Of a stretch of DNA of 64,000 bases, positions 491 to 35,726 are shown in pieces. This DNA comes from Acidobacteriaceae bacterium. Its GTDB lineage: Bacteria; Acidobacteriota; Terriglobia; Terriglobales; Acidobacteriaceae. Below the pieces are notes generated by a model that searched no databases, was not told where the DNA came from, and saw nothing but the letters and a program-made list of their open reading frames with translations. The position numbers and the translations under genes were made by a program. Every line of letters begins with the position of its first letter. The stretch's first letter is position 1. The stretch spans positions 1-64,000 of the forward strand of contig JASHQH010000211.1 of NCBI GenBank assembly GCA_030037635.1, given 5' to 3'.

Positions 491-1954
491 ATGCGACTTG
501 ATCGGATTTTGCTTGGATTGGCGTCGGGATGTGCACTGATATCCACATGTGCCTGTCCCCAGGCCCCGCCCGCATCGCCCCCGGTTCCGCTGGTTCTGGT
601 GGGTGGCACCATCATCGACGTCACCGACTGGGGCCACTCGGCGCGCGACATTCCCGATGCCATCGTGGTCATCCGCGAGGGCCGCATTACCGATGTCGGA
701 GAGCCCGGCCAGGTGGCCATTCCCAAGGGCGCGCGCCTCATCGACTGCACCGGAAAATTTCTCATCCCCGGCCTCGTCGACGGCTTCGCCGGCATGAACT
801 CCCAGGCCCAGGCTCAGGCCAATCTCTACATGGGCGTCACCACGGTCGTGGCCCGCGCCGATTACGAGCGTGGCTTCATCGATACCAGCGCCCACCCCAG
901 CCCGCATATTTACTTGATTGACTCCATCGGCGTCACGGACAACTGGAGCCTGCTCGCCCGCCGTCCCGATTGGATTTCGCAGTTGCGCGAGGGCGCCCAC
1001 CCTGTCGAGCTCAGCCCTGAGGACACTGCCCGGCAGATGACCGACACCGCGCGCCTGGGCACGCGCGTGCTCTTGCTTACCGCGCATCTCACCGCTGCCA
1101 ACTCGCAGTGGATCATTGCGCGCGCCCACGACATGGGCCTGATTACCTACGCAGCCTTCGTCGCCACTCCCTACCGTGTCGGCGTCGAGGCCGGCGTCGA
1201 CGCCCTGGTCCACATGGACCATTACATTCTCGGCGTCATCCCCGACGAATTGCAGGGCCCCCTGGTCGATGACCCCGACGGCCCCTCGGCCACCACCGCC
1301 TACGACTACTCCGAACGCATTCCGCCCACCGATATCCATGTGCGCGAGTATGCACGTTTTCTGGCCGCGCACCACGCCGCGCTCATGCCCACCTTCAGTC
1401 TTTATTACGCTGAGCTGCCCGGTCATCGCAATCTGTGGCGGGAACCGGCGGCGTCTCTACTCGATCGTGGCCGCATGTTTGACCCCACCGACCCCGCCAC
1501 CGGCGAAATGGTGTACCCATTGCCATCGTGGGCGCGCCATTTGCCTGCTATGGGCCAGCGTTGGATGGAAGAAGATGAGCAAAAAAAGGCGGGGCTGACT
1601 GCGCTTCGTCTCTGGCGCATCAACGAAACCATCTTCTCCGCGTACCCCCACTACCTGGCAGCCTCTGGCGCTGACGCCATGGGCACCATGCCGGGCATTT
1701 CGCTGCACACCGAACTTGAGTTGCTCGTCCGCCTCGGTCTCACGCCGCGCGAAGCGCTGGCCGCGGCCACGAATAATTACGCGCTCCAGTTCGGCTGGAA
1801 CGAACTCGGCCTTATCGCTCCCGGGCGCCGCGCCGACATTCTTGTTGTCGACGCCGACCCCGCCGCCAATATCTGGAACGCGCGGCGCATCTCCAGCATC
1901 ATTCTCGACGGCGAGCCACTTGATCGCGACGCGCTGCTGCACCTTAAGAAATGA
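491..1954 (+). CDS. Amidohydrolase family protein (imidazolonepropionase-like), secreted/lipoprotein-like N-terminus
   Basis: ORF 392..1954; likely ATG at 491 (MRLDRILLGLASGCALISTCAC). LVGGTIIDV...GKFLIPGLVDGFAGMNSQ and PGRRADILVVDADP are typical of amidohydrolases. Confidence 0.8.
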   Translation: MRLDRILLGLASGCALISTCACPQAPPASPPVPLVLVGGTIIDVTDWGHSARDIPDAIVVIREGRITDVGEPGQVAIPKGARLIDCTGKFLIPGLVDGFAGMNSQAQAQANLYMGVTTVVARADYERGFIDTSAHPSPHIYLIDSIGVTDNWSLLARRPDWISQLREGAHPVELSPEDTARQMTDTARLGTRVLLLTAHLTAANSQWIIARAHDMGLITYAAFVATPYRVGVEAGVDALVHMDHYILGVIPDELQGPLVDDPDGPSATTAYDYSERIPPTDIHVREYARFLAAHHAALMPTFSLYYAELPGHRNLWREPAASLLDRGRMFDPTDPATGEMVYPLPSWARHLPAMGQRWMEEDEQKKAGLTALRLWRINETIFSAYPHYLAASGADAMGTMPGISLHTELELLVRLGLTPREALAAATNNYALQFGWNELGLIAPGRRADILVVDADPAANIWNARRISSIILDGEPLDRDALLHLKK

Positions 1955-2066
1955 GGCTCGCCGCCGAGCCCCGCGGGACTGTGGGTTCCTTCAAGCTGTA
2001 TCATCTTAGCCGGAGCGCTCGCCTCGCGAGTTTCTCGGGGAGCCGCTTCACACCAGGGCAAAGGCA

Positions 2067-3779
2067 TTGACCAGCCGCAAAAAACCCGAAGATCTGCGCA
2101 GTTACCGCTGGTTCGCTCCCGACAATATCCGTGGCTTTACGCATCGCTCGCGGCTGCGCCAGCTCGGCTTCGTGCCTGAGGATTTCACAGGCCGGCCGGT
2201 CGTCGCCATCGTGAACACCTGGAGCGAGATCAATCCCTGCCATGCGCACCTGCGCGAGCGCGCCGAGGCCGTCAAGCGCGGCGTCTGGCAGGCCGGTGGG
2301 TTTCCCGTTGAGGTCCCGGCATTCACCATCACTGAAACCTACATGAAGCCCAGCCCCATGCTCTATCGCAACCTGTTGAGCATGGACGCCGAAGAGGCAC
2401 TGCGCAGCCTGCCCGTTGACGGCGCTGTTTTGATGGGCGGTTGCGACAAGACTACTCCCGGCCTGCTGATGGGCGCCATCAGCGCCAACGTACCGTCGAT
2501 TTATCTTCCCGCCGGACCCATGCTGCGCGGCAACTGGGACGGCAAGATTCTGGGCAGCGGCACTGACACGTGGAAGTTTTGGATGGAGCGCGGCGCCGGC
2601 CAGCTTTGCGATGCAGATTTGCGCGGCGTCGAAGGTGGAATCGCGCGCTCGCCAGGGTTCTGCATGACCATGGGTACGGCCTCCACCATGACCGCGGTCG
2701 CCGAAGCGCTGGGCATGACGTTGCCCGGTGCGTCCTCGATTCCCGCGATCGATTCCAACCACGTTCACATGGCCATGGAAACAGGCCGCCGTATTGTCGC
2801 CATGGCGTGGGAGGAGCTGAAGCCTGAAGATATTCTGACGCCTGCCGCTTTCCGCAACGCCATCACCGTCGACATGGCCATCGGCGGCTCAACCAACGCC
2901 ATCATTCATCTGGTTGCCATGGCGCGCCGGCGCGCCATTCATTTGCCGCTTCCGCTGTTCGACGAAATCTCATCGAGGGTTCCGGTTCTGGCCAATATCC
3001 GCCCTTCGGGCGAGTTCCTTATGGAGGATTTCTACTACGCCGGCGGCCTGCGCGCGCTTATGACCCAAATTACCGACCTCCTGGACCTCAACTGCCTTAC
3101 CGTAAGCGGCAAAACCGTGGCGGAAAATCTTGAGGGAGCGCGCATCTTCAACAGCGCAGTGATCCGCGACCGCGCCAATCCCCTCATTGCGAGCGGCGGA
3201 TTGGCCATCCTCCAGGGAAGCCTTGCGCCCGACGGAGCTGTCATCAAAGCCGTTGCCGCTGATCGCCGCTTCTGGAAGCACACCGGGCCCGCCGTGGTCT
3301 TCAAGGACTTCGAGGACATGGAAGCCCGCGTGAACGACGACAACCTTGTCGTAGACGAAAATTCCGTGCTGGTGCTGCAAGGCGCCGGCCCGCAGGGCGG
3401 TCCCGGCATGCCCGAGTGGGGCATGCTTCCCATCCCACGCAAGCTGCTTGAGCGCGGCGTGCGCGACATGGTGCGCATTTCCGACGCGCGCATGAGCGGC
3501 ACCGCTTACGGAGCCTGCGTCCTGCACGTTGCTCCGGAGAGTTACGTCGGCGGGCCGCTGGCACTGGTCCGCGACGGCGACCCCATCAGCCTCGACATTC
3601 CCCATCGCAAGCTCGACCTGCTTGTGCCCGAAGCCGAGCTGGCACAGCGCCGCGCGGAATGGATCCGCCCCGTTCCCAAAGAAACGCGCGGCTACCTGGC
3701 GCTCTATCGCGGCCACGTCACCCAGGCCGACCGCGGTTGCGACTTCGATTTCCTCAGCCCGCTCGCGCCAGCGCTCTGA
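2067..3779 (+). CDS. IlvD/Edd family dehydratase (dihydroxy-acid or sugar-acid dehydratase type)
   Basis: 570 aa; VAIVNTWSEINPCHAHLRERAEAVKRGVWQAGGFPVEVPAFT, LMGGCDKTTPGLLMGA, MAIGGSTNAIIHL, DARMSGTAYGACVLHVAPES. TTG start. Confidence 0.85.
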   Translation: MTSRKKPEDLRSYRWFAPDNIRGFTHRSRLRQLGFVPEDFTGRPVVAIVNTWSEINPCHAHLRERAEAVKRGVWQAGGFPVEVPAFTITETYMKPSPMLYRNLLSMDAEEALRSLPVDGAVLMGGCDKTTPGLLMGAISANVPSIYLPAGPMLRGNWDGKILGSGTDTWKFWMERGAGQLCDADLRGVEGGIARSPGFCMTMGTASTMTAVAEALGMTLPGASSIPAIDSNHVHMAMETGRRIVAMAWEELKPEDILTPAAFRNAITVDMAIGGSTNAIIHLVAMARRRAIHLPLPLFDEISSRVPVLANIRPSGEFLMEDFYYAGGLRALMTQITDLLDLNCLTVSGKTVAENLEGARIFNSAVIRDRANPLIASGGLAILQGSLAPDGAVIKAVAADRRFWKHTGPAVVFKDFEDMEARVNDDNLVVDENSVLVLQGAGPQGGPGMPEWGMLPIPRKLLERGVRDMVRISDARMSGTAYGACVLHVAPESYVGGPLALVRDGDPISLDIPHRKLDLLVPEAELAQRRAEWIRPVPKETRGYLALYRGHVTQADRGCDFDFLSPLAPAL

Positions 3780-3880
3780 CAGCCCAGGTCTCGCTTTCGA
3801 GGCGCGGTATGGCAACAACGCCAACCGGCTCCTTGCCGACTCAGATCATTTACTCTTAAATTCAGCAGCCAATTCCCGCG

Positions 3881-4393
3881 ATGAAGACCCGAAGATCCTT
3901 TATAGACCGCATTGGAGGTCCGCATCACGACCGCTTCCTGCTCCTCATCGCGGTGTACAAGCTGCTCCATGCGCTATTGTTCTTCGCCATCGGCATCGGT
4001 ATTCACCGCCTGCTCCACAAGGACATTGCCGACCAGATCGAAACCGTCGCGCGCCACCTTCGATTCAATCCCGAGTCGCGCCTGGTGGTCTTCGTCCTCG
4101 ACAAAGCCTCACTGCTCAACGGTCCTACGCTGCGCCGCATCAGCCTTGTCGCTTACGGCTATGCCACTGTCACGCTGGCCGAAGGCATTGGCCTCTATTT
4201 CGAAAAAGCGTGGGGCGAATTTCTCACACTGGCCATCACGGCATCGTTTCTGCCCTGGGAAATCTTCGAAATCATTCGCCGCCTCACCTGGGTCCGCGCC
4301 GGGCTGCTGACCATCAATATTCTTGTCTTCCTCTACCTGTTGCGGGTCGTCATCGGCCGCGCCCGGAATCGCGCCAGTGCGCAGAAAAAGTGA
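3881..4393 (+). CDS. DUF2127 family membrane protein
   Basis: 170 aa multi-helix membrane protein: HDRFLLLIAVYKLLHALLFFAIGIG...ITASFLPWEIFEIIRR. Confidence 0.65.
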   Translation: MKTRRSFIDRIGGPHHDRFLLLIAVYKLLHALLFFAIGIGIHRLLHKDIADQIETVARHLRFNPESRLVVFVLDKASLLNGPTLRRISLVAYGYATVTLAEGIGLYFEKAWGEFLTLAITASFLPWEIFEIIRRLTWVRAGLLTINILVFLYLLRVVIGRARNRASAQKK

Positions 4394-4415
4394 TGCCGCC
4401 GGAGGCGCCGACGGC

Positions 4416-5321
4416 TTAGAGCTTCTTCACTGCATGGCCGCCGAATTCGTTGCGCATGATGGCCAGCATGCGGTCAGTAAAGTTGTTCTCTTCGCGCGAT
4501 CGGATGCGCCGGATTACTGACTCGGTGATGACCGGCGCAGACACATTCAGGTCGATGGCTTCGAACACCGTCCAGCGCCCCTCGCCGGAATCCACAACGT
4601 ACGCCTGCAGGCCGTCGAGCGTGGGATTGCCAGCCAGCGCATCGGCAGTCAGGTCAAGGAGCCAGCTGCGAATCACGCTGCCGAACCGCCAGATTTGCGC
4701 GATCTGCGGCAGGTTCAGGTGGAACTCTTCCTTCTTGTCCAGCACCGTGAACCCTTCGGCGTAGGCCTGCATCATGCCGTACTCGATGCCGTTGTGCACC
4801 ATCTTCACAAAATGGCCCGAACCGGCCGGGCCCACGTGCCCCCATCCCTTGTCGGGCGCAGGCGCCAGCGCCTGAAAGATCGGGGTCAGATATTCGACCG
4901 GATCCTTGTCACCGCCGATCATCATGCTGTAGCCCTCTTTCAAACCCCATACTCCGCCCGACGTTCCCACGTCGACAAACTGGAATCCCTTGGCCGTCAC
5001 CTCCTGGTAATGCCGCATCGAGTCCTTATAGTAGGAGTTGCCGCCGTCGATCAGAATGTCGCCTTTATTCAGCAGCGGCTCCAGTTTCTCGATCGTTTCG
5101 TCCACCGGCTTGCCCTGCGGCACCATGATCCAGATGGCTCTCCGGCCCTTGAGGTTCTTCGCCAGGTCCTGCAACGACGAAACACCCAAATTGCCAGCCT
5201 TCGTGAGCCGCGCCACGGCCTCGGCATCGAAATCAAAACCCACCACCTGATGCCCGGCCAGCTTTAGCCGTTCCGCCATATTTCCGCCCATCTTGCCCAG
5301 GCCAATCATTCCAAGTTGCAT
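4416..5321 (-). CDS. gnd: 6-phosphogluconate dehydrogenase (decarboxylating), short YqeC/GndA-type
   Basis: 301 aa; MQLGMIGLGKMGGNMAERL (Rossmann), DGGNSYYKDSMRHY, GPAGSGHFVKMVHNGIEYGMMQAYAEG. Confidence 0.9.
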   Translation of the reverse strand: MQLGMIGLGKMGGNMAERLKLAGHQVVGFDFDAEAVARLTKAGNLGVSSLQDLAKNLKGRRAIWIMVPQGKPVDETIEKLEPLLNKGDILIDGGNSYYKDSMRHYQEVTAKGFQFVDVGTSGGVWGLKEGYSMMIGGDKDPVEYLTPIFQALAPAPDKGWGHVGPAGSGHFVKMVHNGIEYGMMQAYAEGFTVLDKKEEFHLNLPQIAQIWRFGSVIRSWLLDLTADALAGNPTLDGLQAYVVDSGEGRWTVFEAIDLNVSAPVITESVIRRIRSREENNFTDRMLAIMRNEFGGHAVKKL

Positions 5322-15895: not shown

Positions 15896-16011
15896 TTAAG
15901 GCTTTTCCGGCCAGCCCGCCGGCGTCATCGCCATCTTTTGCGCGCGGGAAGCGTCAAAAGGGGTAAGAACGTCGGCAAGTAACTCGCCCTTTATTCCCCA
16001 AGGGGTGACCG

Positions 16012-17067
16012 TTGCAGACAAAACATATTTTGCAGTCCTGGGGTAAGGTTCTCCGGGGCCAGACCCCGATGCTCTCCATCGAAATCACGCGCGAGTGCCC
16101 GCTGCGCTGTCCGGGCTGCTATGCCTATGGCGAAAACCATCTGGGCGGCGAAGTAACTCTGCGCGAACTTGCCGACAAGCGCGGCGACGAGCTGGTGCGC
16201 GGGGTGATTGGGCTGGTGGACAGGCTGAAGCCGCTGCAGGTGACACTGGTGGGCGGCGAGCCCATGGTGCGCCATCGCGAGCTCAGCCGCATTCTGCCCG
16301 AGCTGGCAAAGCGCGGCGTTTTTACCATGGTGGTCACGAGCGGCATCATTCCCATTCCCATGGAGTGGCTCAGCCTGCCGCGTTTTTTAGTTGCCATCTC
16401 GGTCGACGGCCTGCCTGAGCACCACGATGTGCGCCGTCATCCTGCCACCTACGAACGCATCCTCTCCAACCTTGCCGGCCGCCGCGTCAACATCCACTGG
16501 ACCATCACTGCGCCCATGCTGGGGCGTGAGGGCTACCTGGAAGAATACGTACGCTTCTGGAATGCGCGTCCCGAGGCGCACAAGATCTGGGTGAGCATCT
16601 ATACGCCGCAGCGCGGAGAACAAAGCGCCGAGCGCCTGAGCGAGGCCCAACGCGCACAAGTGGCTCACGAGTTGCCGCGCCTGCGAGGGCTTTATCCCAA
16701 GCTGCTTACGCCCCAGGGCTACGCGCAGGCACTGCTGCACCCTCCGGCTTCGCCGCGGGAATGCGGATTTTCACGCCTCTCAAAGAATTACTCGGCCGAC
16801 CTCAAGACCCAGGTTGAGCCTTGTGTGTTCGGTGGCGATCCCGACTGCTCACAGTGCGGTTGCTCGGCCAGCGCGGCGACGCACTGGATCAGCGGGATAC
16901 GCGTTGCGGGCCCGGTAAAGACCAAACACCTGTTGCGTGGATCGATGATGATCGGCGGCGCCATGGCCCGCCTGCGGCACATCGCTCTTCCCGCCTGGCG
17001 CGAACGCGAAGAGCAACCGGCTCCGTCGCGAGAAGCCAGCCTGGTTCAAATCTCAACCTCCGACTGA
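16012..17067 (+). CDS. Radical SAM protein (HpnH/SPASM-like organisation)
   Basis: TTG start preceded by AAGGGGTGACC. SIEITRECPLRCPGCYAYG (CX3CX2C), LVGGEPMVRHRELSRILPEL, ISVDGLPEHHDVRR; C-terminal CVFGGDPDCSQCGCSASA cysteine cluster. Confidence 0.82.
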   Translation: MQTKHILQSWGKVLRGQTPMLSIEITRECPLRCPGCYAYGENHLGGEVTLRELADKRGDELVRGVIGLVDRLKPLQVTLVGGEPMVRHRELSRILPELAKRGVFTMVVTSGIIPIPMEWLSLPRFLVAISVDGLPEHHDVRRHPATYERILSNLAGRRVNIHWTITAPMLGREGYLEEYVRFWNARPEAHKIWVSIYTPQRGEQSAERLSEAQRAQVAHELPRLRGLYPKLLTPQGYAQALLHPPASPRECGFSRLSKNYSADLKTQVEPCVFGGDPDCSQCGCSASAATHWISGIRVAGPVKTKHLLRGSMMIGGAMARLRHIALPAWREREEQPAPSREASLVQISTSD

Positions 17068-30124: not shown

Positions 30125-30180
30125 CTGTTCCCTGCTTTCTCGTTCCCTTGGTCCTTTGGTCCCGGTTCTTACTCCCTGCT
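30125..30180. repeat. GGGAACAAG polypurine repeat (pyrimidine strand on +), overlapping ddl 3' end
   Basis: TGTTCCCTGCTTTCTCGTTCCCTTGGTCCTTTGGTCCCGGTTCTTACTCCCTGCT. Confidence 0.6.
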
Positions 30181-31377
30181 GTACGTCGTCCGATTCTTTT
30201 CCCCCTGCCGCTCCAGCGCCAGTTCGATCAGCCGCGTGATGAGGTCCTTGTAGCTGAGTCCCGAAGCCTCCCAAAGCTTGGGATACATGCTGATGCGCGT
30301 GAATCCCGGCATCGTGTTTACCTCGTTCACAAAAATGCGGCGTTTGCCGTCCGGTTCCATCAGGAAATCGACGCGTGCCAGCCCCGCCAGGTCGCACGCC
30401 TTGAACGCCGTCACCGCCATCTGCTGAATTCCGCGGCTCTGAGCGCGCGAAATCGGCGCGGGAATCACGGGCACAGACCCCTCGGACAAATATTTGGCCT
30501 CGTAGTCGTAGAATTCCTTGCCGGGAATGATCTCACCCACCACGCTGGCCTGCGGATCGTCGTTGCCCAGCACGGCAACCTCAAACTCCCGCGCCTGCGC
30601 AGCTTGACCGCCGCGACTGGCCTTGCCGGGGTCCCCGGCGACAGGTCTTCGTCGCTGGGGTGACTTGCCGCCTACGCCTTGCTCCACAATCAGCTTGCGG
30701 TCGTACCTGGCCGCCAGGGTCAGCGCCGGCCCCAATTCTTTGCGGTTGTGCGCCTTGGTGATGCCCACCGACGAGCCCAGGTTCGCCGGCTTCACGAACA
30801 TCGGGTAGCGGAGCGCCCGCTCGATCTGTGCCACGGCCTTGCGCGGCGAGTTTTCCCAATCCGAGCGCAGCAGCGTGACGTGCTTGACGATAGGCAGCCC
30901 GGCCTGCGCGAACAGGCGCTTCATCACGTCCTTGTCCATTCCTGCCGCCGAGCCCAGCACGCCTGACCCCACATAGGCAATCCCGGCCAGCTCAAACAAT
31001 CCCTGAATGGTGCCGTCTTCGCCAAACGTGCCATGAAGCACTGGAAAGACGACGTCGATCGCCCCTCCTCTTGGGCCTTGCGCACCCGGCTCGGGAGTCA
31101 GCAGCGTGGGAATGCCCTCGTGCAGCAGCTTGGCACCCGGCGTCGCCTCGGGATCGCCGGCCCGCAGCCGCCGCCCAACCTCGCTTGTGTCGCCAGAGAG
31201 AAGATGGTTCGCATCCGCGGCAGCCAGCCATCGGCCCTCCTTGGTGATGCCGATGGGCGTCACGTCGAACTTCTCGCGGTCGATCGCGCCCAGAACCGAC
31301 GCCGCCGACAGCAGTGAGACCTCGTGCTCGCCGCTACGCCCGCCAAAAAGAATGCCTACCCGCAGTTTTTTTGCCAT
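30169..31377 (-). CDS. ddl: D-alanine--D-alanine ligase, with an in-frame insertion
   Basis: MAKKLRVGILFGGRSGEHEVSLLSAASVLGAI, VVFPVLHGTFGEDGTIQGLFELAGIAYVGSGVLGSAAGMDKDVMK, FVNEVNTMPGFT. Insertion GGKSPQRRRPVAGDPGKASRGGQAAQ lies between VEQGV and AREFEVAVLGNDDP. Confidence 0.92.
   Translation of the reverse strand: MAKKLRVGILFGGRSGEHEVSLLSAASVLGAIDREKFDVTPIGITKEGRWLAAADANHLLSGDTSEVGRRLRAGDPEATPGAKLLHEGIPTLLTPEPGAQGPRGGAIDVVFPVLHGTFGEDGTIQGLFELAGIAYVGSGVLGSAAGMDKDVMKRLFAQAGLPIVKHVTLLRSDWENSPRKAVAQIERALRYPMFVKPANLGSSVGITKAHNRKELGPALTLAARYDRKLIVEQGVGGKSPQRRRPVAGDPGKASRGGQAAQAREFEVAVLGNDDPQASVVGEIIPGKEFYDYEAKYLSEGSVPVIPAPISRAQSRGIQQMAVTAFKACDLAGLARVDFLMEPDGKRRIFVNEVNTMPGFTRISMYPKLWEASGLSYKDLITRLIELALERQGEKNRTTYSRE
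30625..30660. repeat. CCCCAGCG...CGCCGGGGACCCCGGC hairpin repeat, copy 2, inside ddl coding sequence
   Basis: Minus-strand reading CCCCAGCGAC-GAAGACCT-GTCGCCGGGGACCCCGGCAAGG; GCCGGGG-T-CCCCGGC palindrome at 30625-30639. Confidence 0.7.
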
Positions 31378-31449: not shown

Positions 31450-31992
31450 TCAGCAATTATTCCGCTTGACTAAAAGAGAACAAAAGGCGAACATTTGCAT
31501 GATGGACTCAGAACTAAAGATCGATGAAGTAGGCTATTGGACCGAGATTAAGCTCGCGATTCTCGACGAGTATGCCAAACCGTACAATCAGATTCTGCAC
31601 GCGCGAAAACTAAGAACGATCTACATCGACGCCTTCGCAGGAGCTGGTCACCATCGCGCTAAGGGCAGTAATAGGATCATCGAAGGCAGTCCCGTAAGAG
31701 CGCTTAACGTTTCGCCGCCTTTTGATCTCTTGCACCTCATCGACGTGGATCAAGCCCGGACTCGGGAGCTCGCACGCATCGCCGCGGGGAGAAAAAACGT
31801 AAAAGCCCACACCGGAGACTGCAACCGGGTGCTGTTGAGGGATGTATTTCCGGCTATAAGCTTCACAAATTACGAGCGAGCCCTTTGCATTCTAGTCATT
31901 ATGGAGTGACCGGTTCCCTGCGCGATGCGTGGGTTAGTCTGTGAGACCTGAAGGCAGCACAGATCAGAGCCACAAGCGGAGAGGAACCGGCC

Positions 31993-33120
31993 ATGAAGGA
32001 AAAGGTACGATTTTTGGGCATGGATGTCCATGCGGAGACGATTTCCGTCGCTGTAGCGGAAGCCGATGGAGAGGTACGAAGCTTTGGCACGATAGCCAAC
32101 CGCGCGGAGTCGATCCGCAAGCTGATTAAGAAGCTGGGTCCAGTGGAGCAGCTGCGAGCCTGCTACGAGGCCGGTCCCACCGGCTATGTTCTCTACTGGC
32201 AGTTGAGCGAACTTGGGGTAGATTGTGCGGTCATTGCGCCGACTCTGGCCCCGGTGAAGGCGGGGGATCGGGTCAAGACCGACCGACGGGATGCGGAGCG
32301 GCTGGCACGCAGCCACCGGGCCGGCGACCTGACGGCGGTCTGGGTTCCCGATGCGGGCTGCGAAGCGCTGCGCGACCTGGTACGGGGGCGTGAAGCGGCC
32401 AAGCAGGATCAGTTGCGTGCGCGTCACCGGTTGAGTAAGTTTCTTTTGCGCCAGGGACAACGCCCGGCGCGCGGGGTGAAGGCCTGGACCGTGGCCTACA
32501 TGAGCTGGGTTCGGCAACTTCGCCTTGCCCAGCCGGCACAGGATGCAGTCCGGCTGGACTACCTGCACGAGGTGGAACACATGTCGGAGCGGATCAAGCG
32601 GCTGGAAGAGGCGATCCGTGAAGCGGTCCAACAGGCGCCGCCGCCGATGCAGGCGGTTGTTCAGAGACTGCAGGCGCTACGCGGCATTGCACTGATCTCG
32701 GCCGTCACGATCGCCTCCGAGATCGGCGCGGTTTCTCGCTTCCCCAACGCACGGCAGTTGATGAGCTACAGCGGCACGGTGCCCAGTGAGAACTCCAGCG
32801 GCAAGCGTACACAACGCGGCGGGATTACCAAGTCGGGCAACGCGCACCTCAGGCGCATCCTGGGAGAAGCGGCCTGGAGTTATCGACGCCAGCCTGCCGT
32901 AGGGCCGGCGTTGCGCAAGCGGCAGGAGGGCGTGCCGGAACCGATCCGGCAGATTGCCTGGAGGGCGCAGATACGACTTTCCAAGCGTTATGCCCGGCTG
33001 GCAGCCGCGGGCAAGGATCAGAGGAAGATCGTTACTGCGGTGGGCCGCGAGTTGCTGGGTTTTGTCTGGGCGATCGGCCTCCGCGCAGAAGCATCTGTGC
33101 AACAGACAATTGCCGCCTGA
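31993..33120 (+). CDS. IS110/IS1111-family DEDD transposase (Tnp_IS116/IS110/IS902 C-terminal domain)
   Basis: FLGMDVHAETISVAVAE (D), CYEAGPTGYVLYWQL (E), VKTDRRDAERLAR (DxxD); C-terminal LQALRGIALISAVTIASEIGAVSRFPNARQLMSYSGTVPSENSSGKRTQRGGITKSGNAHLRRILGEAAW. Confidence 0.95.
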   Translation: MKEKVRFLGMDVHAETISVAVAEADGEVRSFGTIANRAESIRKLIKKLGPVEQLRACYEAGPTGYVLYWQLSELGVDCAVIAPTLAPVKAGDRVKTDRRDAERLARSHRAGDLTAVWVPDAGCEALRDLVRGREAAKQDQLRARHRLSKFLLRQGQRPARGVKAWTVAYMSWVRQLRLAQPAQDAVRLDYLHEVEHMSERIKRLEEAIREAVQQAPPPMQAVVQRLQALRGIALISAVTIASEIGAVSRFPNARQLMSYSGTVPSENSSGKRTQRGGITKSGNAHLRRILGEAAWSYRRQPAVGPALRKRQEGVPEPIRQIAWRAQIRLSKRYARLAAAGKDQRKIVTAVGRELLGFVWAIGLRAEASVQQTIAA

Positions 33121-33466
33121 AAGCAAAGACAACTGCAAAGGCAAAGACTTTTCCAAAGAATGAAAAAGCCAAAACACAGATGATTGGCGCCACCCAATTC
33201 GAGGACAGAGCCAGCTGCAGCCGGGGCACACACGAAGGAGAATCCTCGCAGGCTCTATGCGACAGGCTCAGCCGGACTCGCGACTCTAGTCAGAGGCAGC
33301 TTCCGACGGATCATGACCATGCGGTTCCGACCCGCGAATATCAGACTGATCAATCGTCGACTACTCTGCTTCGGCTGCCGCTGGCCCTGTCCTTGATAAC
33401 GACAAAGGCAACAACAAAAAAACAACCCCACAAGGGCGCAGCTATTGACAGGGTGACTCCATATCA
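33121..33466 (+). ncRNA. Candidate bridge/seek RNA region in the 3' non-coding end of the IS
   Basis: 346-nt non-coding right end versus 98 nt on the left. Stem CGACG-GATCA (33304-33313) / TGATC-AAT-CGTCG (33347-33359) encloses a loop with CCATGCGGTT (33317-33326), which matches target flank CCATACGGTT (33470-33479) at 9/10. Confidence 0.4.
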
Positions 33467-33904
33467 GATCCATACGGTTTACACCTCGAATGGCAGGTGA
33501 TAGAAGCAGCCGGAAAATCGGGTGTGGTCGAGATTTTCTTAATTTCCCCGTCATGGATATGAATATGAATGTTTTTTGGGCTAATCCTGGCAGGGTGTCG
33601 GGCGCGAATCAAGAACGCATGAGCAAATTTTGGGGGGACGAAAGTTGGAGGGAAGCCTTTTACGAACCAGTTCAAGGGCTGTTTGGACCAATGGAGGAGA
33701 AGAATCCCATCGGGGATGTGGTTAGGGCCTTTCAAGCCCGTCTCAAGCGCGTCGCTGGTTTCGGCTTCGTGCCCGATCCCATGCCGATGAGAAACTCCAA
33801 GGAAGCGATCGTCTACTTTCTGTTCTTTGCAGCCCACAAACCGGTCGCGGCCGAAATAGTGGAAGATATTTTCAAAAAGTATGAGCTTTATGGGAGGAGG
33901 TTAG

Positions 33905-34732
33905 ATGGCTGAGCACTCCACTATCGAATGGACTGACGCCACCTGGAATCCTGTGCGTGGTTGCACGAAGATCAGCCCCGGCTGCAAACACTGCTATGCA
34001 GAGGTTTTTGCGGAGCGGTTTCGCGGCGTGGCTGGTCATCCCTATGAGCAAGGCTTCGACCTACGCCTCGTCCCCGAAAAGCTCGCTGAGCCCCTGCGCT
34101 GGCAAACGCCGAAGATGATCTTCGTGAATTCCATGAGCGACCTTTTCCACGACGGAGTGCCGGACCACTACATCGAAGCTGTAGCGACGGTTATGGTCAA
34201 GGCCAATTGGCATACCTATCAGATCCTGACCAAGCGGTCTGCGCGCATGGCGAGCCTTCTTCATGGGCGACTTCGGTTCGCGGCAAAATCCGGGCACATC
34301 TGGTGGGGGGTCAGCGTGGAGAACCGTGAGTACGGCCTTCCCCGCGTGCGCGATCTTTGCGATTCACCCGCACGCGTGAGATTTTTGTCGATTGAACCTC
34401 TTCTCGAAGGGCTTGGCCGCCTGAGCCTCTCGGGCATTCACTGGGTAATTGTGGGAGGGGAGAGCGGCAACGGCGCCCGGCCGCTGAAAAAAGAGTGGGT
34501 CACCTCGATTCGCGACCAATGCGATAACGCCAGAATTCCCTTCTTCTTCAAACAGTGGGGAGGCGTGCGTAAAAAGCGGGCTGGGCGAATGCTCGACGGT
34601 AAAACCTACGACGGTTTTCCAGCGCGCGTCAGCAATCCGGTCTCGCCTGCCGCAACAGCTCTCGGCTGGGCGCGTGAAATCCGCGAAAAGTACGACTCGT
34701 CGCTGGCGGAGCTTTTGCCCGTATTGGCGTAA
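33905..34732 (+). CDS. DUF5131 / phage Gp37-Gp68 family three-Cys-motif protein
   Basis: MAEHSTIEWTDATWNPVRGCTKISPGCKHCYAEVFAERFRG, MIFVNSMSDLFHDGVPDHYIEAV, HTYQILTKRSARM, HIWWGVSVENREYGLPRVRDL, FLSIEPLLEGLG, HWVIVGGESGNGARPL, FFFKQWGG. Start overlaps the tcmP stop by 8 nt. Confidence 0.93.
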   Translation: MAEHSTIEWTDATWNPVRGCTKISPGCKHCYAEVFAERFRGVAGHPYEQGFDLRLVPEKLAEPLRWQTPKMIFVNSMSDLFHDGVPDHYIEAVATVMVKANWHTYQILTKRSARMASLLHGRLRFAAKSGHIWWGVSVENREYGLPRVRDLCDSPARVRFLSIEPLLEGLGRLSLSGIHWVIVGGESGNGARPLKKEWVTSIRDQCDNARIPFFFKQWGGVRKKRAGRMLDGKTYDGFPARVSNPVSPAATALGWAREIREKYDSSLAELLPVLA

Positions 34733-34739
34733 GCGCCCC

Positions 34740-35726
34740 TCACAGGATCTTCTTCCCAAATGCCGAGCAGGCCAGTTGCACGGCGAGATCGGCGGTGCGG
34801 TTGTGCTCGTCGATCACCGGGTTCACTTCCACGATCTCGAAGCTGAGCAGGCGCCCGTGATCGGCAACAATTTCCATGGCCAGGTGCGCCTCGCGGTAAG
34901 TGGCTCCGCCGCGGACCGGCGTGCCCACCCCGGGCGCTTCTTCAGGATCGATCCAGTCCATATCCAGCGACACGTGATAACCCGCGGTCCCGCGGCCGGC
35001 CGCGCGCAGCGCCTCCTCCATCACCGTGCGCATGCCGCGCTCGTCGATGTCGCGCATGGTGTAGACCTCGGTCATGCCGGCGCGGTGCAGATTTTCACGC
35101 TCGGCCGCATCGATGTCGCGCACGCCGATCAGCACCGCGTTCTCAGGCGCGATCTTGGGCGCGTAGCCGAAGATATTCTTAAGCGGCTCCGGCCCCAGGC
35201 CCAGCAGCGCGGCCAGCGGCATGCCGTGCACGTTGCCCGACGGCGAGGTTTCCGGGGTGTTGATGTCGGAATGAGCGTCGATCCAGAGCAGCCCGACTTT
35301 CTGTCCGCGCCGGCGATAAAATTCGGATACGCCCGACACCGAGCCGGCAGCCAGCGAATGGTCGCCACCCAGAAGGAGCGGCGTCATCCCCGCCTCCAGC
35401 GAGGCCACTACGGCCTCGGCCGTGCGCGTGCAGGTTTCCGCAATCTCCTTCAGGTAGTGTGCGGCCTTATTTCCAGGGGCTTGCGTCTCGGCAATCTTCA
35501 CGCGGATGTTGCCGCCATCGGTGACGGGAAGGCCGAGAGCCTCAAGCCGTGCTTCGAGCCCGGCAACGCGCACCGCCGATGGCCCCATATCCACGCCGCG
35601 CCGGCTCGCACCCAGATCCAAGGGCACGCCGATAATCCGAATGCGGTGAGCAGGTTGCGCCGGCACGCCGGCGTCTGGAGATCCTTGGCGCCTGACCGGG
35701 ATCGATGATGGTTTACGCTTCGTCAT
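34740..35726 (-). CDS. rocF: Arginase
   Basis: RIIGVPLDLGASRRGVDMGPSAVRVAGL, LLLGGDHSLAAGSVSG, GLLWIDAHSDINTPETSPSGNVHGMPLAALLG, HVSLDMDWIDPEEAPGVGTPVRGGATYREAHL. Confidence 0.93.
   Translation of the reverse strand: MTKRKPSSIPVRRQGSPDAGVPAQPAHRIRIIGVPLDLGASRRGVDMGPSAVRVAGLEARLEALGLPVTDGGNIRVKIAETQAPGNKAAHYLKEIAETCTRTAEAVVASLEAGMTPLLLGGDHSLAAGSVSGVSEFYRRRGQKVGLLWIDAHSDINTPETSPSGNVHGMPLAALLGLGPEPLKNIFGYAPKIAPENAVLIGVRDIDAAERENLHRAGMTEVYTMRDIDERGMRTVMEEALRAAGRGTAGYHVSLDMDWIDPEEAPGVGTPVRGGATYREAHLAMEIVADHGRLLSFEIVEVNPVIDEHNRTADLAVQLACSAFGKKIL

Follow-up and report, generated by a model that had tools for sequence, protein, structure and literature searches.

A decayed TcmP/DUF5131 gene pair between ddl and arginase in a soil acidobacterium, and the exchange of TcmP beside a retained DUF5131

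What does a pair of adjacent genes for a TcmP-like protein (three-Cys-motif partner family) and a DUF5131 protein (Gp37/Gp68 family) do between two core genes of a soil acidobacterium, and is the pair still functional there? The question is raised by a 64,000-nucleotide stretch of DNA (the window; positions 1 to 64,000 of contig JASHQH010000211.1, assembly GCA_030037635.1, Acidobacteriaceae bacterium) within a 4.77-Mb draft genome, the closest named relatives of which are Acidobacteriaceae metagenome-assembled genomes (MAGs). An earlier note on this DNA had described a simple two-gene module and a candidate uncharacterised system, possibly for defence or nucleic-acid modification. The locus stands as a defence candidate, but it is not an uncatalogued one, as PADLOC-DB 2.0 holds the pair as phage-defence candidate PDC-M41, with the sister entry PDC-M30, and tcmP is not in working order here. 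The window locus is shown to be a decayed TcmP/DUF5131 pair at a variable chromosomal site, in which tcmP was then knocked out by an IS1111-type insertion sequence (IS) and altered by a frame change, and DUF5131 is intact. Across related loci, TcmP is repeatedly exchanged while DUF5131 stays. That intact copies form a two-enzyme, nucleic-acid-modifying defence module with an exchangeable TcmP, through two S-adenosylmethionine (SAM) enzymes acting on one target, is in our judgement an evenly balanced proposition.

The two genes, both of which the earlier note had recognised, and the element that separates the halves of tcmP are arranged as follows.

31499-31893, + strand: 5′ part of tcmP, PDC-M41A type, interrupted, with motif I YIDAFAGAG (TIGR04474, 89 bits; PDC-M41A, E 1.4e-27)
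31894-33465, + strand: IS1111-type (IS110 family) insertion sequence of 1,572 bp, delimited by its ends, inverted repeats and transposase
31993-33120, + strand: DEDD transposase of the IS (PF01548, E 7e-17; PF02371, E 2.5e-21; NF033542, E 1.2e-71)
33466-33912, + strand: 3′ part of tcmP (TIGR04474, 50.2 bits; PDC-M41A, E 1.9e-34)
33905-34732, + strand: intact gene for DUF5131, 275 aa, radical-SAM-like (PF07505, E 2.2e-97; PDC-M30B, E 6e-102; PDC-M41B, E 1.6e-101)

The cut-off of TIGR04474 is 53 bits. The start codon is taken to be the ATG at 31499, where the homologues start, and a start at 31466 is probably wrong; the aligned N-terminal part is 78% identical to the TcmP of L005 and 63% to that of L262. 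The insertion point (flanks ...TGCATTCT / AGATCCATACGG...) lies immediately 5′ of the codons for DPYG (33467-33478), which are read in a frame different from that of the listed open reading frame (ORF). DPYG is the equivalent of methyltransferase motif IV, a role that had been assigned wrongly to the segment FLNFP by likeness to an NPPY-type catalytic loop. Near 33540, the 3′ part changes from frame 0 (SDPYGLHLEWQVIEAAGKSGVVEIFL) to frame 2 (LNFPVMDMN...), the frame upstream of this point reading DPYGLHLEWQVIEAAGKSGVVEIFL. Because the IS precedes the DPYG codons and the frame changes near 33540, TcmP cannot be produced from the window copy. Both genes match PDC-M41 and PDC-M30 and are adjacent, as they also are in relatives at the same site, but PDC-M41 calls for two intact genes and the window tcmP is broken at both of these places. 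The system is therefore dead in the window genome, or only DUF5131 is left of it; intact copies of the window-type tcmP are present in the relatives L238 and L262.

The IS shows four features of the RNA-guided IS1111 group, and no difference from the group was seen: a DEDD transposase; subterminal inverted repeats, ATGGAGTGACC (31901-31911) and GGTGACTCCAT (33452-33462), paired at 10 of 11 positions; outer extensions of 7 bp on the left and 3 bp on the right, as the end rule of the group prescribes (PMC11187229); and a downstream non-coding region. There is no target duplication.

33121-33451, + strand: long non-coding region 3′ of the transposase gene, putative guide (seekRNA or bridge RNA) region, positioned as in the IS1111 group

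This region shares only short k-mers with the target, not clearly above chance, and an Rfam scan over the locus returned zero matches. The genome holds one full copy of the IS; a search for a second returned only a relic of 33287-33393 at 81% identity. The relic (G000:C158:2181-2288, L003) is an orphan of the putative guide-RNA region, lacks a matching transposase, and may mark a conserved RNA core. In another Acidobacteriota family, an independent tcmP (L316; G249:C204, bases 1414-3920) is interrupted by an unrelated IS110-family element, and its near-identical relative L041 is uninterrupted. A target shared by the two elements was considered and rejected, as the transposases are 29% identical and the second site lies 8-9 codons past the motif-IV codons. 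The idea that both genes of the window copy are intact and work together can appeal to the intact DUF5131 and to the tcmP sequence lying upstream of it in the correct order with the expected overlap, but it must accommodate an IS at the active-site motif together with a frame change, and rescue would come only from RNA-guided excision of the IS plus an assembly error in the frame; we regard it as highly improbable.

The pair is bordered by two core genes, as had been noted.

30169-31377, - strand: ddl, D-Ala-D-Ala ligase, left border (PF07478, E 2e-69; PF01820, E 1e-35)
34740-35726, - strand: arginase-family gene, right border (PF00491, E 8e-76)

The interval between them is occupied by tcmP and DUF5131 sequences, and the tight spacing that had been described is confirmed: tcmP, with its stop codon at 33910-33912, and DUF5131, with its start at 33905, overlap by 8 nucleotides (nt), and the convergent arginase gene lies 7 nt beyond DUF5131. 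The pair occupies the same gap in L004, L238 and L239; in L262 it lies next to ddl, and in L250 a DUF5131 gene lies next to the arginase gene at a contig end. The DUF5131 proteins at this site are 80-85% identical, and their TcmPs fall into three types with mutual identities of only ~27-30%: T2 (window, L238 and L262), T1 (L004) and T5 (L239). The kin of the L004 TcmP pair with DUF5131s of just 66-70% identity, and the TcmPs of L239 and L006 share 63% identity. At the DNA level, homology between the window and L004 extends across ddl, skips tcmP, and resumes at the start of DUF5131 to continue across arginase.

The same pattern is found on the DUF5131 tree, on which TcmP type (assigned by BLAST clustering at 35%) changes 31 times against a minimum of 10. 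Trees constrained to unite the DUF5131s of each type were rejected by the approximately unbiased (AU) test (p 2e-6, 7e-85 and 3e-7), for groups that were chosen after the first tree had been inspected, and in one well-supported DUF5131 clade that includes Verrucomicrobia loci (L023, L027 and L030) the TcmP type is swapped and the gene order is altered too. The trees were quick ones, with support from the Shimodaira–Hasegawa-like approximate likelihood ratio test (SH-aLRT). TcmP is thus repeatedly exchanged while DUF5131 stays, co-inheritance of the two is rejected by the trees, and the pattern is new in this analysis. PADLOC keeps M41 and M30 apart, but their B proteins score alike, including against the window DUF5131, and share one site, and their A proteins are interchangeable, the window TcmP fragments matching PDC-M41A. 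As the split tracks TcmP type only, PDC-M30 and PDC-M41 look like one system with an interchangeable TcmP.

The two families are firmly associated, across phyla, in support of the earlier note. In 80 genome loci, which were retrieved by DUF5131 similarity and are biased for pairing counts, TcmP adjoins DUF5131 in 52 of the 65 with sufficient flank, lying upstream, downstream or convergent. A survey of 297 Acidobacteriota genomes is free of this bias: 35 of the 39 genomes with a TcmP also have a DUF5131 (odds ratio 124, p 3e-28), and in 39 of 43 TcmP loci the two genes are direct neighbours. Three of the four exceptions are at contig ends, and in the only non-edge case (G484, L305) a genuine radical-SAM gene follows, which weakly matches PF07505. 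Overall, the pair is widespread, occurring in 35 of the 297 genomes, on plasmids and on some viral contigs. DUF5131 stands without TcmP in 18 of 62 loci in the survey, and on viral contigs it is mostly solitary (47 of 61 well-flanked loci).

This asymmetry bears on a toxin–antitoxin-like abortive system, in which TcmP would be a harmful RNA- or DNA-modifying effector, DUF5131 would prevent or reverse the damage, and a phage DUF5131 alone would be an antidote. Almost every TcmP has a radical-SAM neighbour, yet DUF5131 is often solitary; the half that looks broken is TcmP in six loci of the survey, each beside an intact DUF5131 (window, G345, G255, G352, G010 and G249), and no DUF5131 gene adjacent to TcmP in the 297 genomes has an internal stop; the two genes overlap; and a ParE-type toxin gene lies at the same site in a relative. 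However, the asymmetry is also what a DUF5131 with an independent function would produce, some of the tcmP frame changes and pseudogenes may stem from misassembly of MAGs, both genes appear to encode enzymes with conserved active sites, and a swap of the toxin with the antitoxin kept is unusual for such pairs. We consider this explanation doubtful.

The enzymatic nature of TcmP is supported by structure prediction. The model was made from the intact homologue L023, which is of the window's TcmP type, and not from the broken window gene; it has a predicted local distance difference test (pLDDT) score of 95, and ranks 1-14 among its PDB matches are all RlmJ or a Legionella DUF519 homologue (E 3e-9 to 2e-7), the next methyltransferases following from E 2e-5. 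The TcmP family profile also picks up RlmJ among PDB sequences (E 0.006), in agreement with hhalign, and TIGR04474 matches E. coli RlmJ weakly, under its cut-off (E 0.0012). TcmP is accordingly predicted to have the fold of a class I SAM-dependent methyltransferase and to be a relative of RlmJ, the 23S rRNA m6A2030 methyltransferase, as the earlier note had suspected of its fold. The two share motif I (Y[IL]D.[HF]AG.G), a Lys and an Asp, and a GSPL segment; the motif-IV Asp is present in 100 of 100 TcmPs and the N-terminal Lys in 97 of 100, and the active-site residues are probably active. In contrast, identity is ~14%, no TcmP matches PF04378 (the RlmJ family) at E <= 0.1, and motif IV is mostly DPx[GD] (DP[YFWT][GD]) or DQxG among the 100 homologues, whereas RlmJ has DPPY; TcmP is methyltransferase-like but is not an RlmJ. 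Unlike RlmJ, some TcmPs, namely the long types (L239, L313), carry a C-terminal GMT-wHTH domain (PF22560), which may bind nucleic acid and serve as a specificity module.

DUF5131 very probably belongs, as a divergent member, among the radical-SAM enzymes, judging from its predicted structure and from the proteins that replace it; a metal-cluster nature had been anticipated from its cysteines.

33962-33997, + strand: three-Cys motif C20-X6-C27-X2-C30-Y31 of DUF5131 (57 homologues)

C20, C27, C30 and Y31 are invariant across the 57 homologues, and the spacing CX6CX2C is nearly so, one homologue having a 3-residue insert between cysteines. The DUF5131 model (pLDDT 93) finds its best PDB match in spore photoproduct lyase (SPL), weakly (E 6e-4); the DUF5131 profile found zero matches among PDB sequences. 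Like DUF5131, the radical-SAM proteins SPL, PA0069, Rv2578c and rSAM_mob_pair have a TIM-barrel-type fold and, near the N terminus, a three-Cys motif with a Tyr after it, and DUF5131 matches TIGR04471 of this group weakly, but the profile comparison gave no match to SPL; the kinship with SPL is thus one of fold only. A possible link between the families is seen in P0002, which matches both PF04055 (1e-7) and PF07505 (0.003), and the cluster-cysteine motif of the L305 radical-SAM protein was aligned with the three-Cys motif by hhalign, weakly (probability 34). Where DUF5131 is missing beside TcmP, in two loci (L305, L312), a genuine radical-SAM neighbour stands in its place; the one on the Nostoc plasmid matches PF04055 (E 1e-9). 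These loci indicate that TcmP is partnered by proteins of radical-SAM type, of which DUF5131 is very probably one.

The SPL match also invites the idea of a nucleic-acid repair module, in which DUF5131 would be an SPL-like lyase reversing DNA or RNA damage, TcmP would mark or find the lesion, and the pair would confer damage tolerance on phages and plasmids. An S24-family peptidase gene is adjacent to the pair on a Comamonas plasmid and radC genes are nearby on a Sulfitobacter plasmid, in keeping with such a role. We think it quite unlikely, given the weak fold E-value and the unmatched SPL profile, and it leaves unexplained both the rapid exchange of TcmP and the restriction, BREX, Hachiman and Hna genes beside the pair.

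These neighbours are found on plasmids, in line with the defence or mobile context that had been proposed. The pair adjoins a type IIG restriction enzyme in Leptospira and an N6-methylase/AAA/McrC cluster (McrBC-like) in Nocardioides, and TcmP with its radical-SAM partner lies beside BREX in Nostoc. A cassette of one DUF5131 and two different TcmPs (TcmP-TcmP-DUF5131) is shared by the loci L310 and L313 of S. meliloti pSymA and Agrobacterium pAt; it lies beside Hna on pSymA and beside Hachiman HamA/HamB on pAt. In S. meliloti, a TcmP gene adjoining the defence helicase Hna has been reported to be up-regulated along with Hna (PMC12445080). Several other plasmid contexts are neutral, without defence genes.

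The chromosomal site is more varied in its cargo. The ddl–arginase gap is often nearly empty (6-164 bp) in relatives (L166, L177, L182, L192, L241-L243, L251, L254, L255, L258, L260 and L261), many of which have the ddl orthologue only 28-164 bp away from arginase; in others it holds genes for a ParE toxin and a ParD-like protein (L226), an SDR gene (L256), VOC-like genes or, as read by eye, a HigBA-like pair (L173) or DUF1275-like genes (L171, L174 and L181). A dedicated defence hotspot was considered and rejected on account of the SDR, VOC-like and DUF1275 cargo. In a relative of the same genus (L224; G083:C34, bases 3712-4584), the gap contains a two-gene unit, possibly toxin–antitoxin-like, that includes a 194-aa protein (YHGCDREFGERLLSG..GPGVYFWE) with a weak match to PD-T4-9_A (E 1e-4). 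The window Ddl has ~20 additional residues (SPQRRRPVAGDPGKASRGGQ) in its ATP-grasp region, after IVEQGVGGK, which most same-genus relatives lack and of which the Ddls of L240 and L241 have shorter partial forms. Elsewhere in the window, a separate ORF (16009-17064, + strand) resembles, by eye, an ordinary radical-SAM protein with the canonical motif CPLRCPGCY.

Such mixed contexts would suit an accessory pair that serves a purpose other than defence (regulatory RNA modification, for example), travels with mobile DNA and meets defence genes through shared mobility. The varied ddl–arginase cargo and the neutral plasmids speak for it, but McrBC-like, type IIG, BREX, Hachiman and Hna genes lie directly adjacent on unrelated plasmids, and PADLOC lists the pair by guilt by embedding; on balance we hold this explanation to be unlikely.

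The overlapping genes, the variable TcmP, which relies on a radical-SAM partner, and the defence neighbours together suggest a nucleic-acid-modifying module in which TcmP sets the target. In intact copies, both SAM enzymes would act on one nucleic-acid target: TcmP, the exchangeable and target-defining half, would recognise or methylate it, DUF5131 would perform radical chemistry on the mark or reverse it, and the outcome would be protection against phages or other invading DNA. The mode may be self-marking, the spoiling of invader nucleic acid or a toxin reversed by DUF5131, and the sequence does not discriminate among them; profile searches of the pair's proteins found no nuclease component of the kind that defines restriction–modification. 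The anti-phage role is drawn from guilt by association. In P. aeruginosa, 32 of 100 strains were predicted to carry PDC-M30 and 68.8% of these 32 resisted phages, a correlation only (PMC10855318). None of the outcomes named beforehand as contradicting a partnered role (unrelated folds, no co-occurrence, no mobile or defence context) was found. Weighing against the module, however, are the cluster motif CX6CX2C instead of CX3CX2C, the absence of PF04055 from the window DUF5131 at E <= 0.1, the failure of its family profile to match that of SPL (hhalign probability 0.2), the departure of the TcmP motifs DPYG, DPFD and DQxG from the DPPY of amino-methyltransferases, the candidate status of the PDC entries, itself guilt by association, the SDR and DUF1275 genes also hosted by the site, and the open-access literature searched, which holds no experiment on either family.

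A broader version of the defence module, which we put forward tentatively and would not expect to hold in full, makes PDC-M30 and PDC-M41 one defence system, in which a conserved radical-SAM enzyme (DUF5131 or another) would work with any of more than 10 exchangeable TcmP types in a novel nucleic-acid modification for immunity, and phages would carry just the radical-SAM half, to counter it or turn it to their advantage.

The window locus itself is of modest interest, and the exchangeable-partner pattern is of more. The partner slot is radical-SAM-like even where DUF5131 is missing, a merging of the two catalogue entries is suggested, and the loci with swapped partners at one site offer a natural set for mix-and-match work. 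What had been a gap in annotation becomes a biochemical question, namely which mark is made or removed by two likely SAM enzymes of different chemistry.

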